Part shown: piece by piece, positions 1 to 19,430 of the stretch | Layout of the letters: each line of letters opens with the position of its first letter | How positions within the stretch are numbered: position 1 is the first letter of the stretch | Source: a virus | Length of the DNA stretch: 20,423 nucleotides | Virus record (IMG/VR): IMGVR_UViG_3300023238_000054 | Span: 1 to 20,423 of that record | Strand: one strand, 5' to 3' | Notes under the pieces: model-generated | What the model saw: only the letters and a program-made list of their open reading frames with translations | What the model was told of the DNA's origin: nothing | Databases searched by the model: none | Position numbers and translations under genes: made by a program

Positions 1-24
1 AAAGTGATTTTATTTGTAGTACGG

Positions 25-160
25 ATTAACACGCTAGGCATTTGAGACCGATGCCGATATTACAGAAAACGGGTTACGTGAAAGCAAACTATTCCCCTAA
101 GAGTGGGGAGGGCCGGTGCGACCTACCGAATACAGGGTTCCGAATAATGTAGTGTGTTAG
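25..160 (+). ncRNA. Candidate structured RNA (unassigned)
   Basis: The first 257 bases hold no convincing gene but show nested base pairing. Positions 27-36 pair with 150-159 as a 10-bp helix with one G-U pair. Directly inside it, GGCAT (37-41) pairs with ATGCC (51-55), and TCCCC (93-97) pairs with GGGGA (105-109). This would form a multibranch RNA of about 130 nt just upstream of the + strand cassette. No riboswitch, ribozyme, tRNA or group I intron consensus was recognised. The pairing was found by eye, and by rough estimate a helix of this kind has a modest chance of arising by accident. A leader RNA, an antitermination element or a phage small RNA are all possible. Confidence 0.3.
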
Positions 161-201
161 GCGAAAGAAGGCAGAGACCAACCTGTTAATATATTAGGGC
201 T

Positions 202-231
202 TTTACATAAGGTCTATATGACAACTATTGT
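202..231 (+). promoter_or_regulatory. Candidate sigma70-type promoter
   Basis: TTTACA (202-207) is one mismatch from the -35 consensus. It is followed after 18 bases by TATTGT (226-231), which has two mismatches to TATAAT. This would start transcription about 20 bases before the small membrane peptide at 258 and could drive the whole + strand cassette. The match is only fair and could be chance. Confidence 0.25.
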
Positions 232-257
232 CTGAATAACAGCAGCAAGAGGTTCAA

Positions 258-338
258 ATGAAGCAGAAATTTATAGACCTAACGTTATCAACAGTCTTTT
301 TATTATTCCTTATCGGTATTTATGGACTAGCATCATAA
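258..338 (+). CDS. Small single-pass membrane peptide (26 aa)
   Basis: This ATG-started 26-residue frame begins with a polar, basic segment (MKQKFID). One hydrophobic stretch of about 17 residues (8-24, rich in Leu, Phe, Ile and Val) then runs almost to the stop, which predicts a tiny single-pass inner-membrane protein. A good Shine-Dalgarno AAGAGG (247-252) lies 5 bases before the ATG, which is the main reason to believe the gene. It precedes the 145-aa gene by 35 bases and probably shares its transcript. Phage micro-proteins of this type include holin-like, superinfection-exclusion and lysis-regulating peptides. Nothing in the sequence decides among these, and no family was recognised. Confidence 0.5.
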   Translation: MKQKFIDLTLSTVFLLFLIGIYGLAS

Positions 339-373
339 AATGATACAGTTCCTGTGACTTAAAGGAGTAAGAA

Positions 374-811
374 ATGAGTGATACAGAAACTATGATAAAG
401 GTAATGTCTGCTTATGTAGATGGGGACATGATCGAATGGAAGCCCCGTGGTAAGAATCGCCCTTGGCAGGATATTATTGGTGGTTCACCTCGTTGGAATT
501 GGGGCAAGAACGATTACAGGATCAAGCCAGAAGAGGCTGAGCATGTAAATATTGGCACAGACAAAAGGCTTTGGGCGCTGGAGCAACAAGTTAATAATTT
601 GCAGTTGGCGCTACGAGAAGTCAGATTAAATCAAAATTCCAAATGGACAGGGACAATGCTAAAGAAGCCCGAAGAAGTAATGATTGAGACTTGGGTTTAT
701 AAGCAAACTGGCGGCGTTCGCTTTTGCATTAGCGGAAGTAGGGCATCAAAAGAATTAGAAGCAGACGCTAAAGATTTTTACTTATTGACGATTAAGTCCT
801 CTAATGTTTGA
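374..811 (+). CDS. Conserved phage protein with W-rich YRIKP domain
   Basis: The product is 145 residues of unknown function. The first 55 residues match a small domain seen in many phage accessory genes: a DG.MIEWKPRG-like strand, then W...I.GG.PRWNWG and a closing DYRIKP. Residues 62-90 look like a short amphipathic helix or coiled coil (RLWALEQQVNNLQLALREV). The C-terminal third contains a second β-rich piece (WVYKQTGGVRFC). The start is supported by AAAGGAG at 361-367. The gene overlaps the following NinB-fusion gene by 8 bases, so the two are probably translationally coupled. The N-terminal domain recurs in phage early and accessory regions but has no established role, and none is assigned here. 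Confidence 0.8.
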   Translation: MSDTETMIKVMSAYVDGDMIEWKPRGKNRPWQDIIGGSPRWNWGKNDYRIKPEEAEHVNIGTDKRLWALEQQVNNLQLALREVRLNQNSKWTGTMLKKPEEVMIETWVYKQTGGVRFCISGSRASKELEADAKDFYLLTIKSSNV

Positions 812-1427
812 TCAATTCTGGACTATATATCCAAAGAAAACGGGTCGTTTGGCAGCAGAAAAGAAGTTCAATGCTCTAAAGCCAGAGGTTCAAAAAGAGA
901 TCCTGAATCACCTGGCTATTCGAGTAGAGGCAGATAAAGGCTGGAAAGATGGCTTCATACCACTACCTGTAACATTCTTGAATCAGGGTAGATGGATGGA
1001 TGAATATGAGAAGATAGAGCGGTTCAGACCTAAGATGGACGCGGTTAAGGTTGAGATATGCCCTAACTGTAGAAGTCTAACCGCCTCTCAAATCCATCAA
1101 GACCAATGCGTTAAAGGGGCAGCACAAAACAGGATTTTACCTCCAGTGGTAGATAAGAAATACCGCTCAAATGAACAGAATCAGCGTTTTCATGCTATGT
1201 GCGGTGATATAACGACTCACTTGAAGGCTAAAGGCTCGAAAGTCTCTGCCTTGATGGTGAAGGCATTGGTTAAAAAGCATTTTGGCCCGAATGTCACGAT
1301 TGAGGTGGGCGGAATAACTGAAGAAGTTGTTAAGCCTTCAAGTAAATACACACCAAAGGAAATGACTGATCTAATGGATGAAATAACCGCTTGGGCCGCT
1401 ACTGATTTAGAGTTGGTATTAAGATGA
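804..1427 (+). CDS. Replication-initiator-like / NinB-domain fusion protein
   Basis: The 207-residue protein appears to have three parts. Residues 2-70 (FDQFWTIYPKK, IPLPVTFLNQGRWMDEYE) match the C-terminal module of phage replication initiator and DnaT-like proteins, with the usual FW..YPKK and P.TFLN.GRW signatures. Residues 86-102 form a CxxC-x8-H-x3-C pattern that could bind zinc. Residues 119-207 resemble lambda NinB (Orf), a recombination mediator that acts on SSB-coated single-stranded DNA. The shared features are YRSNEQNQRFHAMCGDI, a central Lys-rich helix and SSKYTPKEMTDLMDEITAWA. The start lies inside the previous gene (8-base overlap) and the end makes an ATGA overlap with the next. 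Likely role, inferred: linking replication or SSB-coated DNA to recombination. Confidence 0.75.
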   Translation: MFDQFWTIYPKKTGRLAAEKKFNALKPEVQKEILNHLAIRVEADKGWKDGFIPLPVTFLNQGRWMDEYEKIERFRPKMDAVKVEICPNCRSLTASQIHQDQCVKGAAQNRILPPVVDKKYRSNEQNQRFHAMCGDITTHLKAKGSKVSALMVKALVKKHFGPNVTIEVGGITEEVVKPSSKYTPKEMTDLMDEITAWAATDLELVLR

Positions 1428-1618
1428 GTCGAGGCAGATATACTGACACCAGGGCTTATTCATTCTTACCAGCTAGAGTTTTGATTATTGCTAAAGACGC
1501 AGCTAGAGCGGGGATTATTGCTAAGAAATTGGGACTACTGCAACGGCAATATATATGGGAGACTGCTGATAGACCATTTTCGAGCGGCATGAAGATACAT
1601 GATCGAGAATACTTATGA
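1424..1618 (+). CDS. Hypothetical small protein (64 aa)
   Basis: This is a 64-residue basic protein that I do not recognise. Its ATG overlaps the NinB-fusion stop in an ATGA arrangement (1424-1427). No strong Shine-Dalgarno site precedes it, so translation would depend on coupling. Residues 18-38 (ARVLIIAKDAARAGIIAKKLG) look like a β-strand followed by an Ala-rich helix. The C-terminus is polar, ending HDREYL. Its tight packing is the main argument that it is real. An intrinsic terminator follows after about 40 bases, so this may be the last gene translated from the short form of the upstream transcript. Confidence 0.6.
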   Translation: MSRGRYTDTRAYSFLPARVLIIAKDAARAGIIAKKLGLLQRQYIWETADRPFSSGMKIHDREYL

Positions 1619-1938: not shown

Positions 1939-2080
1939 CCCACCACCTAATAACCTGGTTGAAACAGTCGATGGATATGTCCCTAAGTGTAAAGATTGGG
2001 TCAATCTATCAGATGGTGGGGCTTTGACTGACGAGCAGATAACTAGAAGAATCGAATATTCAGAAAGGAATAAGAAGTGA
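1922..2080 (+). CDS. Hypothetical small protein, GTG start (52 aa)
   Basis: I place the start at GTG 1922 rather than the in-frame ATG at 1883. A strong GGGGAGG (1908-1914) lies 7 bases before the GTG, while the ATG lacks a good site. The resulting 52-residue protein begins VDVIHSPPPNN. It has a WVNLSDGGALTDEQITRRIEYSE segment that may end in an amphipathic helix. No family was recognised. It overlaps the previous gene by 17 bases and the next by 4 (GTGA at 2077-2080), so it is translationally coupled on both sides. Confidence 0.6.
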   Translation: MDVIHSPPPNNLVETVDGYVPKCKDWVNLSDGGALTDEQITRRIEYSERNKK

Positions 2081-2952
2081 CTAATCCATATTTTATAGAC
2101 GAGCCAGCAGCAATCAGTTTCTCCGGCGGTAGGACATCGGCTTATATGCTTTACAAAATACTCGAAGCGCATGGCGGAAAGCTGCCTGACCACATCAAAT
2201 GTTTGTTCAGTAACACTGGTAAGGAGCTTCCAGAAACCTTGGATTTCGTGCAGGCGTGTTCTGACAATTGGGGTGTTGAAATTGTTTGGCTTGAATTGGA
2301 AAGCATCCGGCGATTGACGGGCGGCAAGGTTAATAATGATATGGCGATCAGGGCTGACGAGTACGAAAGAAAATACAAGTTGGTTGATTACAACACAGCA
2401 AGCCGTGATGGACTGCCTTTCACCAGATTACTCATGGGCCTGCCTCAAATTCCTAATGCTGTACAGAGAACTTGTACTGTAAATCTAAAGATCAGAGCGA
2501 TGAAATGGTATCTGGAGTCCATCGGGTATGAGTCGCCGTGGGTTCAGTTTATTGGCATTCGTGCTGATGAGGAACGCAGGGCCAGAAAACTCCACGGCAA
2601 GATTAGCGAAGGACACGAGGCGGTTTGCCCGCTATGGGTCGATGGGATCACAAAGGAAGATGTTGGTGATTTCTGGCGGAAGCAAAATTTCGATTTGAAA
2701 CTTCCAAACAACAATGGAACTACGGATTGGGGCAACTGTGATTTATGCCATCTTAAATCTAGGTCGAAAAGGCTCTCAATAATTCGAGAAAGACCAGACC
2801 TTGCAGACTGGTGGATACAAGCCGAGGGATTTAAAGGCCAGAGATTCCGCCCCGACGAGCCAAGTTACGAACAGATGAAATTAATAGCGATAGATCAGGG
2901 TAACTTGTTCGAGTTTGACGATGAATCTATCCCATGTTTTTGTGGGGACTAG
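2077..2952 (+). CDS. PAPS reductase-like adenine nucleotide alpha-hydrolase family protein
   Basis: This 291-residue protein belongs to the phosphoadenosine-phosphosulfate reductase/ATP-pyrophosphatase superfamily. The nucleotide-binding PP-loop is clear at residues 14-21 (SFSGGRTS), followed by AYMLYKIL and a strand with CLFSNTGKELPETLDFV. Other family features are TCTVNLKIRAMKWYL (near 132), the basic ERRARKL segment and a Cys cluster NCDLCHLKS (near 219-227). The C-terminus ends CFCGD, another possible metal or redox pair. Phage members are common, but their substrate is mostly unknown. Sulfur transfer in DNA or RNA modification (DndC-like) or sulfur assimilation are the usual suggestions. 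The start is GTG in a GTGA overlap with the upstream gene, with GAAAGGA before it. The stop directly abuts the ninG-like start. Confidence 0.85.
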   Translation: MTNPYFIDEPAAISFSGGRTSAYMLYKILEAHGGKLPDHIKCLFSNTGKELPETLDFVQACSDNWGVEIVWLELESIRRLTGGKVNNDMAIRADEYERKYKLVDYNTASRDGLPFTRLLMGLPQIPNAVQRTCTVNLKIRAMKWYLESIGYESPWVQFIGIRADEERRARKLHGKISEGHEAVCPLWVDGITKEDVGDFWRKQNFDLKLPNNNGTTDWGNCDLCHLKSRSKRLSIIRERPDLADWWIQAEGFKGQRFRPDEPSYEQMKLIAIDQGNLFEFDDESIPCFCGD

Positions 2953-3378
2953 ATGAGAGGCAGAAAAGGCCCGAGGGATATAAACTCTAAAACTATCCCG
3001 CAATTACAAAATACTTTATGGCCGATATTCGCGCTATACATCAAAAAGAACCATTCGGTTGATGGTGTTCATTGTAAATGCTTCACCTGCGACAAGGCTC
3101 TAAAGATTGGGGATCGCGACTGCCAAGCGGGACACTGGATACCTAGAACCTATAGCCCTGTAAAGTATGAAGAAGATAATCTTAGGCCCCAATGTAGCCA
3201 ATGCAATGAATTCTGGCATGGTAGGCCGGTAGAATTTGAGCGCAGGTTAAGATTAGAGATTGGGGATGAAAGGGTAGGCGAATTAAAAACACTGGCTACC
3301 CAATCGTGGAAATGGGATAGAAGTTGGCTAAAAGATCAAATAGCGTACTATAAAGAGCAGTTAAAGGATTATGAATGA
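2953..3378 (+). CDS. ninG: NinG/Rap-like recombination nuclease
   Basis: This 141-residue protein matches lambda NinG (Rap), a structure-specific endonuclease that cuts Holliday junctions and D-loops. Visible signatures are C43, C46 and C57, then AGHWIPR (59-65, with His61), then EEDNLRPQCSQCNEFWHG (73-90, with C81 and C84). Together these form the zinc-bound HNH-like core typical of the family. The C-terminal RLRLEIGDERVGEL segment also matches the usual R..L...IG.ERV..L helix. The gene begins at the base after the PAPS-reductase-like stop and overlaps the following gene by 4 bases. With the NinB-like fusion upstream, it suggests a phage-encoded recombination pathway. Confidence 0.85.
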   Translation: MRGRKGPRDINSKTIPQLQNTLWPIFALYIKKNHSVDGVHCKCFTCDKALKIGDRDCQAGHWIPRTYSPVKYEEDNLRPQCSQCNEFWHGRPVEFERRLRLEIGDERVGELKTLATQSWKWDRSWLKDQIAYYKEQLKDYE

Positions 3379-16606: not shown

Positions 16607-19430
16607 TTATGCGGCTCAAGCAAGAGCGCAGGGTGAAGCGAATAAAGATGCAGCCTATCAGACGACTGTATTAAGCAACCCTAACATCTATACGCCAACA
16701 GGCTCCCAAACAACCACTTGGGGGCCGGCTAATCAGGGGCAACCAGGTTCAACTTCGACTCCTTGGCAAAACCAGCCTTTAGCGGGCGGTCTTTACTCGC
16801 CTACTGGTGGTGGCCCTGGTGATTGGCAGCAGAACGATGCAACTGCCTCCACTCAAGGCTCAGGGCCTCAAGGTGGCGCTCAGACTACTCAGAATTCTGG
16901 ATTTAATAATACGGGCAATGCTAATCAAAACCCACAGTCAGGACTAGACCCCTTACAGGGAGCGCAATGGAATCCTGCTACTGGGACATTGCAAAATCCA
17001 GACGGAACTACATTTGACCCAACTCAGGCATATAATTCTGCTGCTGGCGGGAACGGAATACCTCCTGCACTTGCAGGAATACCCCAAGCAACGGTTAATC
17101 AGCATCTATCGCCTACTGAACAGGCCAAGATGGATAAGAATGACCTTCTGCAACTCTCATTACTGGATACCGCCCAAGGTGGTCTAGGTCGTGTGAATAA
17201 CATGATGGATACGCCATTTGATATGAGCAATATCACAGAAATTTCCGATATTGATACTGGAAACGGCTTTAATGCTCAGAGATATTTGGCTGAAAACCCC
17301 GATGTTGCTGCTGCTGGCGTTGATCCTTACCAACATTACCAACAATACGGCAAAACTGAGGGTCGGGGCGGTGCTGGAATCCCTACTCTGAACTCCAACG
17401 GCTTGCAGGAAATGTCAGGTGTTGATATTGGTCAGTTATCCCCGCAGGGCAATATTGATACTTCTGGATTGACCGAGCTACAGGGTATTGATACTTCTGG
17501 ATACGGGCAATACGGGAACATTGATACGAGTCAATTAGCCGATCAGGGCAATATTGATACTTCTGGATTGACCGAGCTACAGGGTATTGATACTTCTGGA
17601 TACGGGCAATACGGGAACATTGATACGAGTCAATTAGCCGATCAGGGCAATATTGATACTTCTGGAATGAATCAAGGTGGCTCGCTGAATACTGATGGGA
17701 CTAGAAATTATGAGTCTCTAAACCGAAATGGACAGCCTAATATAAACGGATTGTCTCAGGAGGGTAGCGTTCAAGGTCTTGATAGAAATGGGATGCAGAA
17801 TGTCCGTGGATTGGATCAAAACGGGCTTCCTCAGCAGTCTGGAATCAACCGCAATGAACTCAGTGCTAACGGTGAGTTGAATTCAAACGCTCGGTCTTAT
17901 ATGGATCAGCGAGAAACAACCGGAACAGTCGGTGGTAATGATCGTGTTTATGACTCTCTAGTTCAGCGTAGACAAGGCCAGTTCGATCAACAGCGTGAGC
18001 AGGCCGAATCAGACCTTATTTCAAGAGGATTTGTGCCAGGTAGCGAAGGTTATCGTGAGCGAATGCGCGAGATCGACCAAGAAATGAACGATTATAAGTT
18101 GGCTGCAATGGCTCAAGCGGGTCAGGAACAGCAAAGATTGTTCAATATGGAAAGTGGAATGCGTGATCAAGATTTTGGTCAAGCGCAGGCATCGGCTCAG
18201 TTTGCTCAACAATTGAGAGCGCAGGGCATGGATGAACAGCAGGTTCAGGCTCAAGTTAATGATATGAACCGTAGTCAGCAGTTTTCTGAACGTCAGGATA
18301 TGTCGAACTTTGATATGAGGCGTCAGGATCAGCAGTTTGGTCAGAAACAGGCTGTATCGCAATTCTCTCAGAACCAGAATCAGCAGGATTTCAATCAGCG
18401 TCAGAATGTCTCGAACTTTGATTTGCAGAGTAACCAGCAGGATTTCGCTCAGAGACAGGCAGTTTCTAATGATGCTCAATCTCAAAGGGCGCAGCAAATG
18501 GCCGAAAGAGGGCAAATTGCCAACTTTAATGAAGGCCAGCGTGTTCGTGAATTTGGTGAGCAAGAGTCTTTGGCCCAGTTTCAACAGCAATTACGCGCTC
18601 AAGGTCTTAATGAGCAACAGATTCAGGCTGAAATGCAGAATAAACAGCGTTCTATGCAGTTATCTGAAGATCAGTCTATGGCTGACAACGCGGTCAGAAA
18701 CCGTACCCAACAGTTCAACGAGCAAGAGCGTATGGCTCAGTTTGCTCAAGGTCTACGAGCGCAGGGGCTTAGTGAGCAACAGATTCAAGCTCAAGTTAAT
18801 AACGCAATGCGTAGCCAGCAGTTTGGCGAACGTGCTGCAACTGCTGGATTCGATCAATCTGAAGCTCAGAGACAGTTTTCTAACAGTGCTGCTCAGAATC
18901 AAGCGACTGCTCAACAGCGTCAGCAAGAGATTCAGGAGCAGGCTTACCTTAGAAGTCTGCCATTGAACGAGATAAACGCCCTTAGAAGTGGCTCACAGGC
19001 TTCATTACCTCAGTTTCAACAGTATACAGGCGCTAACGTAGCTCCTCCTCCACTGTTTGATGCTGCTGTAGCCCAAGGTAACTTTGACCAAGCCTCTTAC
19101 GCTAACTCCCCTGACGTATTGGGTGGGTTGTTTAGTCTTGGCGGCGCTGCTCTAGGCGGGATGACAGGCGGCGCTACAACCGCCCTACAAGCTGGTGCTG
19201 CTGGCGCATTCGGGACACCTAGTGACATTCGACTGAAAGATAACTTAGTCGAAATTGGTGAACTTGGCCCTCTGAAGGTCTTTGAGTGGGATTGGAATGG
19301 AAAACTTGGGCTTAAAGGCAAGAGCAAAGGCTTTATTGCGCAGCAAGTTCAGAAGCTATTTCCTCAGTTCGTTATTGAGAAATCTGGTTATCTCCATATT
19401 AAATATGATGAGTTATTGGAGGCGATCTAA
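16563..19430 (+). CDS. Large Q-rich repeat virion protein with minimal S74 C-terminal chaperone
   Basis: The 955-residue protein begins MGFLGTG, then APPPPDYAAQARAQGEANKDA, a start seen in many phage tail-associated proteins. Residues 30-180 are a low-complexity Gln/Gly/Asn/Thr region. About 296-440 is an 11-residue repeat (G.IDTSGL.EL-like), including a perfect 99-bp duplication. Residues 455-850 are Gln-rich helical repeats, with three FAQ.LRAQG..EQQ.QA units at 547, 673 and 727. A Gly/Ala-rich segment precedes the last 69 residues, SDIRLKDNLVEIG to KYDELLEAI, which match the peptidase S74 intramolecular chaperone. Ser887 and Lys892 keep the S-x4-K spacing of its self-cleaving dyad. It is probably a trimeric tail or ejection-associated protein. 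Confidence 0.8.
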   Translation: MGFLGTGDSAPPPPDYAAQARAQGEANKDAAYQTTVLSNPNIYTPTGSQTTTWGPANQGQPGSTSTPWQNQPLAGGLYSPTGGGPGDWQQNDATASTQGSGPQGGAQTTQNSGFNNTGNANQNPQSGLDPLQGAQWNPATGTLQNPDGTTFDPTQAYNSAAGGNGIPPALAGIPQATVNQHLSPTEQAKMDKNDLLQLSLLDTAQGGLGRVNNMMDTPFDMSNITEISDIDTGNGFNAQRYLAENPDVAAAGVDPYQHYQQYGKTEGRGGAGIPTLNSNGLQEMSGVDIGQLSPQGNIDTSGLTELQGIDTSGYGQYGNIDTSQLADQGNIDTSGLTELQGIDTSGYGQYGNIDTSQLADQGNIDTSGMNQGGSLNTDGTRNYESLNRNGQPNINGLSQEGSVQGLDRNGMQNVRGLDQNGLPQQSGINRNELSANGELNSNARSYMDQRETTGTVGGNDRVYDSLVQRRQGQFDQQREQAESDLISRGFVPGSEGYRERMREIDQEMNDYKLAAMAQAGQEQQRLFNMESGMRDQDFGQAQASAQFAQQLRAQGMDEQQVQAQVNDMNRSQQFSERQDMSNFDMRRQDQQFGQKQAVSQFSQNQNQQDFNQRQNVSNFDLQSNQQDFAQRQAVSNDAQSQRAQQMAERGQIANFNEGQRVREFGEQESLAQFQQQLRAQGLNEQQIQAEMQNKQRSMQLSEDQSMADNAVRNRTQQFNEQERMAQFAQGLRAQGLSEQQIQAQVNNAMRSQQFGERAATAGFDQSEAQRQFSNSAAQNQATAQQRQQEIQEQAYLRSLPLNEINALRSGSQASLPQFQQYTGANVAPPPLFDAAVAQGNFDQASYANSPDVLGGLFSLGGAALGGMTGGATTALQAGAAGAFGTPSDIRLKDNLVEIGELGPLKVFEWDWNGKLGLKGKSKGFIAQQVQKLFPQFVIEKSGYLHIKYDELLEAI
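17445..17666 (+). repeat. Perfect 99-bp tandem repeat, two copies plus a partial third
   Basis: Two copies at 17445-17543 and 17544-17642 look identical base for base. A further 24 bases (17643-17666) repeat the start of the unit. Each copy encodes 33 residues made of three 11-residue sub-repeats. Lack of any silent difference indicates recent slippage or unequal recombination, or an assembly duplication. Confidence 0.85.

Follow-up and report, generated by a model that had tools for sequence, protein, structure and literature searches.

The lambda Orf (NinB) protein (PF05772, PDB 1PC6) is described as binding SSB and single-stranded DNA, and binding to SSB is reported for YbcN as well (PMC4118853). 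According to the same account, its beta1-alpha1-beta2 segment comprises a RAGNYA motif and takes part in the dimer interface, and the positions of R41, Q45, N46 and W50 are conserved, with tryptophan or histidine at position 50 (PMC4118853). The C-terminal domain of Red-beta is reported to have an Orf-like fold and to bind SSB and exonuclease (PMC8303780). Fusions of Orf to HNH nucleases are already in print, including DUF968 proteins and phiNM1 Gp16 (PMC4118853, PMC12817073). The gene described here resembles these proteins in joining an Orf/NinB-type domain to another DNA-metabolism domain, but their partner is a C-terminal HNH nuclease, whereas here it is an N-terminal domain that we call FW. 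No Pfam HNH family matched the protein up to E 10, and the best PHROG HNH match had E 0.16 over residues 85-132. In the titles and abstracts of the open-licence literature, we found no NinB fused to a replication initiator or replisome organizer.

The FW domain is otherwise familiar from phage replisome organizers and initiators (phrog_270, phrog_9474), where in many relatives it follows, on the C-terminal side, N-terminal parts of various types (for example DUF1376 or Lin1244_N). The fusion shares the FW domain and its conserved positions with these proteins. Unlike them, it carries FW at its N-terminus, with no DNA-binding part before it and NinB after it. The window analysed here comprises 20,423 nucleotides (IMG/VR record IMGVR_UViG_3300023238_000054) and is part of a tailed-phage genome, as indicated by terminase-like and portal-like ORFs recognized by eye and by NinG and endolysin-type matches. 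The following features of the window are relevant.

374 to 811, plus strand: upstream overlapping gene of 145 aa, phrog_21668, with no assigned function (ORF call, PHROG match).
804 to 1427, plus strand: FW-NinB fusion gene, ATG start, 207 aa (ORF call, domain matches, identical copy in a second contig).
807 to 1019, plus strand: FW domain, residues 2-72, a small all-helical domain of the type found at the C-terminus of phage replication initiators and replisome organizers (phrog_270).
1059 to 1109, plus strand: possible zinc knuckle C86-x2-C89-x8-H98-x3-C102 (from the sequence; modelled without confidence).
1152 to 1424, plus strand: NinB/lambda Orf core, residues 117-207; no beta-alpha-beta segment was modelled with confidence (PF05772, phrog_72, AF2, VIA).
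1424 to 1618, plus strand: small downstream overlapping ORF of 64 aa (ORF call).
2953 to 3378, plus strand: NinG (Rap) endonuclease gene, downstream of the fusion (PF05766 E 3.9e-9; phrog_5034 E 4.5e-20).

A preliminary description of this DNA had proposed that a replication-initiator-type domain is fused to NinB in 804-1427 and had named a sequencing error as what might undo the proposal. Both domains were matched by profiles and are read in one frame, such that no frameshift is necessary. The gene shares 8 bases with its upstream neighbor and 4 bases with the downstream ORF, for which a PHROG search up to E 1 returned no match. Overlaps with both neighbors are as in a compact operon. Moreover, a second contig of 32,884 bases (IMGVR_UViG_3300022844_000012) holds the same ORF at 100% identity. 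The entire window lies within that contig at 100% identity and is flanked there by additional sequence on either side, and the end points of the two contigs differ. The ORF and its in-frame fusion are thus confirmed as real, and we regard the gene as a natural fusion so far known from a single tailed-phage lineage. It is highly improbable that a chimera or an indel merged two genes during assembly, given that two contigs with different ends carry an identical gene and that the alternative frames contain stops at the junction. What speaks for an artefact is that only two virus contigs are known to carry the gene, and these may have one virus population as their common source.

Two further arrangements were considered and rejected. 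An N-terminus of NinB displaced into another frame was discarded because both other frames of 988-1200 have stops. The gene at 374-811 was considered as the missing N-terminal half of a split initiator; it has no initiator-type match in PHROG and is therefore not an evident half of one.

Residues 2-72 matched phrog_270, which represents the C-terminal domain of phage replication initiators, with E 3.5e-15. Additional PHROG matches fell inside residues 2-74, namely phrog_9474 (E 6.8e-13) and phrog_9327, a 'primosomal protein' family (E 1.2e-8). When the FW half was searched alone, its PHROG matches were kept and no Pfam family appeared. Across an alignment of 30 FW sequences, F5, P53 and R63 were invariant. 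No Pfam or NCBIfam family matched more than one of these 30 members, with the best stray match at E 0.0025. FW might be related to the primosomal protein DnaT, although the Pfam matches of the 30 members included no DnaT model. The AF2 model of FW has five helices (mean pLDDT 84.2, pTM 0.70), and several of its BFVD matches are named replisome organizer, the best with probability 1.00 and E 1.1e-3; no BFVD match reached 1e-3 or below. Solved structures provided no convincing counterpart by profile (best E 0.33), by Foldseek (best E 8.3), or by VIA, where none of three chains compared reached Z 2 or more. Likewise, a phmmer search of the whole 207-aa protein against solved structures had a best E of 0.75. 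The absence of structure matches does not make the FW fold new.

The claim of a replication-initiator-type module held for the C-terminal domain of such proteins and failed for their DNA-binding part. FW starts at residue 2 with an in-frame stop just upstream at 786-788, and the N-terminal DNA-binding part of initiators was found neither in the fusion nor in the upstream ORF. This arrangement is shared, since FW lies within 20 codons of the start of the open frame in 28 of 179 complete distinct FW ORFs, fusion included, among the matches listed. Small FW-first phage proteins (about 120-130 aa) that lack a preceding DNA-binding part are encoded in L141 (1463-1834), L185 (3001-3363), L216 (2995-3378), and other surveyed loci. 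They resemble the fusion in that FW begins within the first residues, but their tail is about 52-58 residues long, whereas that of the fusion consists of the knuckle and the NinB core. In L141 and L216, the FW-first gene is located downstream of a small ORF that, on visual inspection, resembles Cro. The fusion gene likewise has such an ORF upstream (L002, 4669-4869), which also looks Cro-like by eye and had no PHROG match.

As a separate observation, 21 of 137 distinct FW ORFs among the matches listed terminate in -PF, preceded by a short stretch that is often acidic (for example, IDSIPF at the end), and thereby resemble the C-terminal tail of SSB. They occur in L003, L006, L007, L009, L205, L221, L249, and others. 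Because many of these ORFs are closely related, fewer than 21 of them represent independent cases.

The C-terminal half was matched by PF05772 over residues 116-200 (36.2 bits against a cut-off of 23.8, E 6.3e-9, profile positions 35-125 of 131) and by phrog_72 (NinB/Orf) over residues 118-200 (E 1.4e-13). Both matches were kept when this half was searched alone, and the gene provided the only NinB match within the window. In an AF2 model beginning at residue 73, the block 117-207 had pLDDT values of 93-98, and residues 73-112 were near 50. Foldseek placed 1pc6 first for this model, albeit at E 0.022 and with nothing at 0.001 or below. The VIA alignment of the core to lambda Orf (1pc6) starts at residue 37 and has Z 9.1 over 90 residues at 4.5 A. 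The profile of our alignment A6 matched 1pc6 with E 1.8e-31, and in this alignment R121, Q125, N126 and H130 correspond to Orf R41, Q45, N46 and W50. Hence, the core shares its helices, a beta hairpin and the conserved R..QN positions with lambda Orf. In contrast, the N-terminal beta-alpha-beta (RAGNYA) segment of Orf was neither recognized nor confidently modelled, and its position is taken in the fusion by a linker that may contain a zinc knuckle and that follows FW.

VIA also matched the core to the C-terminal domain of the 80alpha Sak protein (8qe9, Z 6.7) and to that of Red-beta (6m9k, Z 6.1; 8tg7, 5.7; 8tfu, 5.5), although Z values of 5.5-6.7 can reflect a common arrangement. In Red-beta and Sak this domain is attached to an annealase rather than to FW, and for the fusion SSB binding is a prediction. 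The proposal that NinB is fused here was thus borne out by the Pfam and PHROG matches but needs narrowing, as the NinB part is probably not whole and, judging from the model, begins after the beta-alpha-beta segment of lambda Orf. The loss of this segment is tentative, since an alignment confined to positions from at least 26 onward of a 135-position profile was seen for 9 of 130 distinct NinB ORFs, fusion included and some of them fragmentary, among the matches listed. Because the core matches 1pc6, Sak and Red-beta and the beta-alpha-beta segment was not recognized, the modelled NinB part looks like a docking core rather than a whole toroid. The replacement for that segment was modelled at a pLDDT of about 50, and SSB or DNA binding may therefore be lost or differ.

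Between the two domains lies the CxxC-x8-H-x3-C motif named in the preliminary description, which is present as C86, C89, H98 and C102. When the protein was shuffled 20000 times, this exact spacing appeared once and a looser form of the motif 50 times. The looser form was also present in 65 of the 1648 distinct stop-to-stop ORFs (150 codons or longer) from the surveyed loci, which were called mechanically and are not all genes; the motif alone is therefore suggestive only. A zinc-type tail after FW was found in 2 of 179 complete FW ORFs among the matches listed, the fusion and an ORF of L034. We consider the zinc knuckle a plausible candidate.

We surveyed viral sequences for relatives of the fusion. 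The survey comprised 326 loci plus the window, with three scans contributing their best 80 loci each. Searching with the full-length protein returned 40 viral loci, one of which (L002) is this phage; in the other 39 the matching ORF carries FW in 38 cases and NinB in one (L041). The best 80 loci obtained with the NinB query all had NinB ORFs without an FW domain. Matches were also obtained in phage records (122) and plasmids (21), each below 80% query coverage. Scans for patterns of the FW and R..QN motifs with the spacing of the fusion hit 15 and 22 stretches, none of which belonged to a second ORF with both domains besides that of this phage, and a scan of genome contigs gave one FW-only relative. 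Among the matches listed, there were 201 distinct FW ORFs and 130 distinct NinB ORFs, and a single distinct ORF, in seven copies that are all of this phage, had both domains. No diverged relative of the fusion was found among the matches listed from viral loci, phage records, plasmids and pattern scans. These results agree with the earlier suggestion that the architecture is not standard, in that no second fusion was found among the matches listed in any of the phage, plasmid, pattern and locus searches.

NinB had also been described as normally a free protein, and this is how it was encountered. Among the matches listed, FW and NinB occur as separate ORFs in 69 loci, a count of loci that includes some near-identical ones and leaves out copies of this phage. 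The two ORFs are on the same strand in 67 of these loci, with FW upstream in 66. A DnaB-like ORF lies between them in 40 of the 66 FW-upstream loci among the matches listed, and the median gap is 1002 nt. For example, Podoviridae sp. MW202481.1 is annotated with SSB, exonuclease and Erf-type genes on one strand and with Cro, replisome organizer, 'DNA polymerase' and NinB on the other, and its 'DNA polymerase' scores as DnaB-like in our scan. The fused gene would have originated through a deletion between FW and NinB genes or through capture of NinB by an FW-first gene.

FW and NinB genes are often separated by about 1 kb on a single strand, a distance that one deletion can remove to join them. 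This is the basis of the main rival to a functional fusion, namely that a deletion between neighboring genes accidentally left FW joined to a truncated, non-functional NinB remnant and that only FW works. The occurrence of the fusion in one lineage only, among the matches listed, and the start of the NinB profile match at position 35 of 131 are in line with such a remnant. However, the conserved Orf-core positions are kept, the frame is open through the NinB C-terminus, the core was modelled at high confidence, and the window offers no other NinB match. On balance, we consider an accidental joining somewhat unlikely.

We next considered the genes surrounding the fusion. In the 32.9-kb contig, genes for a Sak annealing protein (PF06378 E 1.9e-48), a YqaJ exonuclease (E 2e-18), and an SSB (E 2.1e-33) lie upstream of the fusion on the opposite strand. 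The phage SSB has the C-terminal end DDIPF. Using the DnaB-like protein P0003 of the relative L047 as query at E 1e-5, no ORF matched in the window or in the 32.9-kb contig. That contig has no end overlap and may be incomplete, which makes the apparent lack of a helicase or initiator tentative.

Several other observations concern this phage. Beside NinG, window 2077-2952 encodes a PAPS-reductase-like protein (phrog_424 E 1.5e-47), and a 74-aa ORF at 3375-3599 matches part of the peptidase M15/endolysin families and is possibly a truncated lysis enzyme. Direct repeats spaced about 99 nt apart with 94% identity lie at 17422-17670, inside a 955-aa ORF. A stretch of roughly 700 nt that separates a small HTH-looking ORF from the following gene (L044, 8518-9218, the right part of which is window 1-373) has no listed ORF of at least 60 aa and could be a regulatory region or an origin. 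Rfam gave no RNA element match at E up to 1 across L044 8300-9700, and the sole repeat found in the ORF-poor region was one 14-nt imperfect inverted repeat. Nearby, L044 7542-7851 holds an extended array of units of 12 bases, with 16 overlapping register copies, within overlapping minus-strand ORFs, where it would encode Gly-Tyr-Gly-Ser/Asp or Met-Asp-Leu-Asp repeats.

The preliminary description had further held that the architecture couples helicase or primosome loading to the handling of SSB-coated DNA. The first half of this claim found no support: FW comes without a DNA-binding part, and the phage contig, which is perhaps incomplete, yielded no DnaB-like ORF. Helicase or primosome loading was deduced from where FW occurs. 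The same two absences in the window and the 32.9-kb contig, together with a neighborhood of recombination genes, could mean that the protein is essentially a NinB recombination mediator, in which FW serves as an accessory element for protein contact or dimerisation that replaces the lost beta-alpha-beta segment and has no replication role. We find this quite unlikely because both this FW domain and those of relatives match replication-initiation and primosomal families. Furthermore, FW occurs alone in FW-first genes, and those of L141 and L216 occupy a position like that of the fusion, downstream of a Cro-like-looking small ORF.

We therefore prefer to view the gene as a functional single-lineage fusion encoding an adaptor that brings a replication-module contact to SSB-coated DNA, to which we assign a rough probability of 0.5. 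We infer the adaptor as the likeliest role from the domain identities and the gene neighborhood. In this adaptor, FW would be the helical C-terminal module of replisome organizers in its FW-first form, free of a DNA-binding part. The linker, with its possible zinc knuckle and putative zinc binding, would connect FW to the NinB/Orf core. The core would dock on the C-terminal tail of SSB on single-stranded DNA, either that of the phage or that of the host. FW would then bring its usual replication-module partner, perhaps a host helicase, loader or primase, to that DNA. The outcome would be replication coupled to the Sak, exonuclease (YqaJ) and NinG recombination set. A requirement for Sak and Ssb in replication is reported for the staphylococcal phage 80alpha (PMC5499656).

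A broader 'Rosetta stone' reading, which we consider unlikely, is that FW and SSB-docking domains of the NinB/Red-beta type cooperate in many phages, in trans or, as here, in cis, directing replisome assembly to SSB-coated recombination or restart intermediates. This reading cites the separate FW proteins that end in the SSB-tail-like -PF. The partners given for NinB in the published lambda two-hybrid map are FI, U, Orf79, Ea8.5 and S', with no replication protein among them (PMC3224144), which counts against a general contact between FW and NinB. If the broader reading were true, FW-first phages would not depend on a classical origin-binding initiator to start or restart replication.

The fusion highlights the FW domain, which is widespread among phage replication proteins and has no model in the searched Pfam and NCBIfam libraries that matches more than one of the 30 members. 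If functional, the fusion would constitute a covalent link between the replication and recombination modules of a phage, and it would point to an interaction between two common phage proteins.
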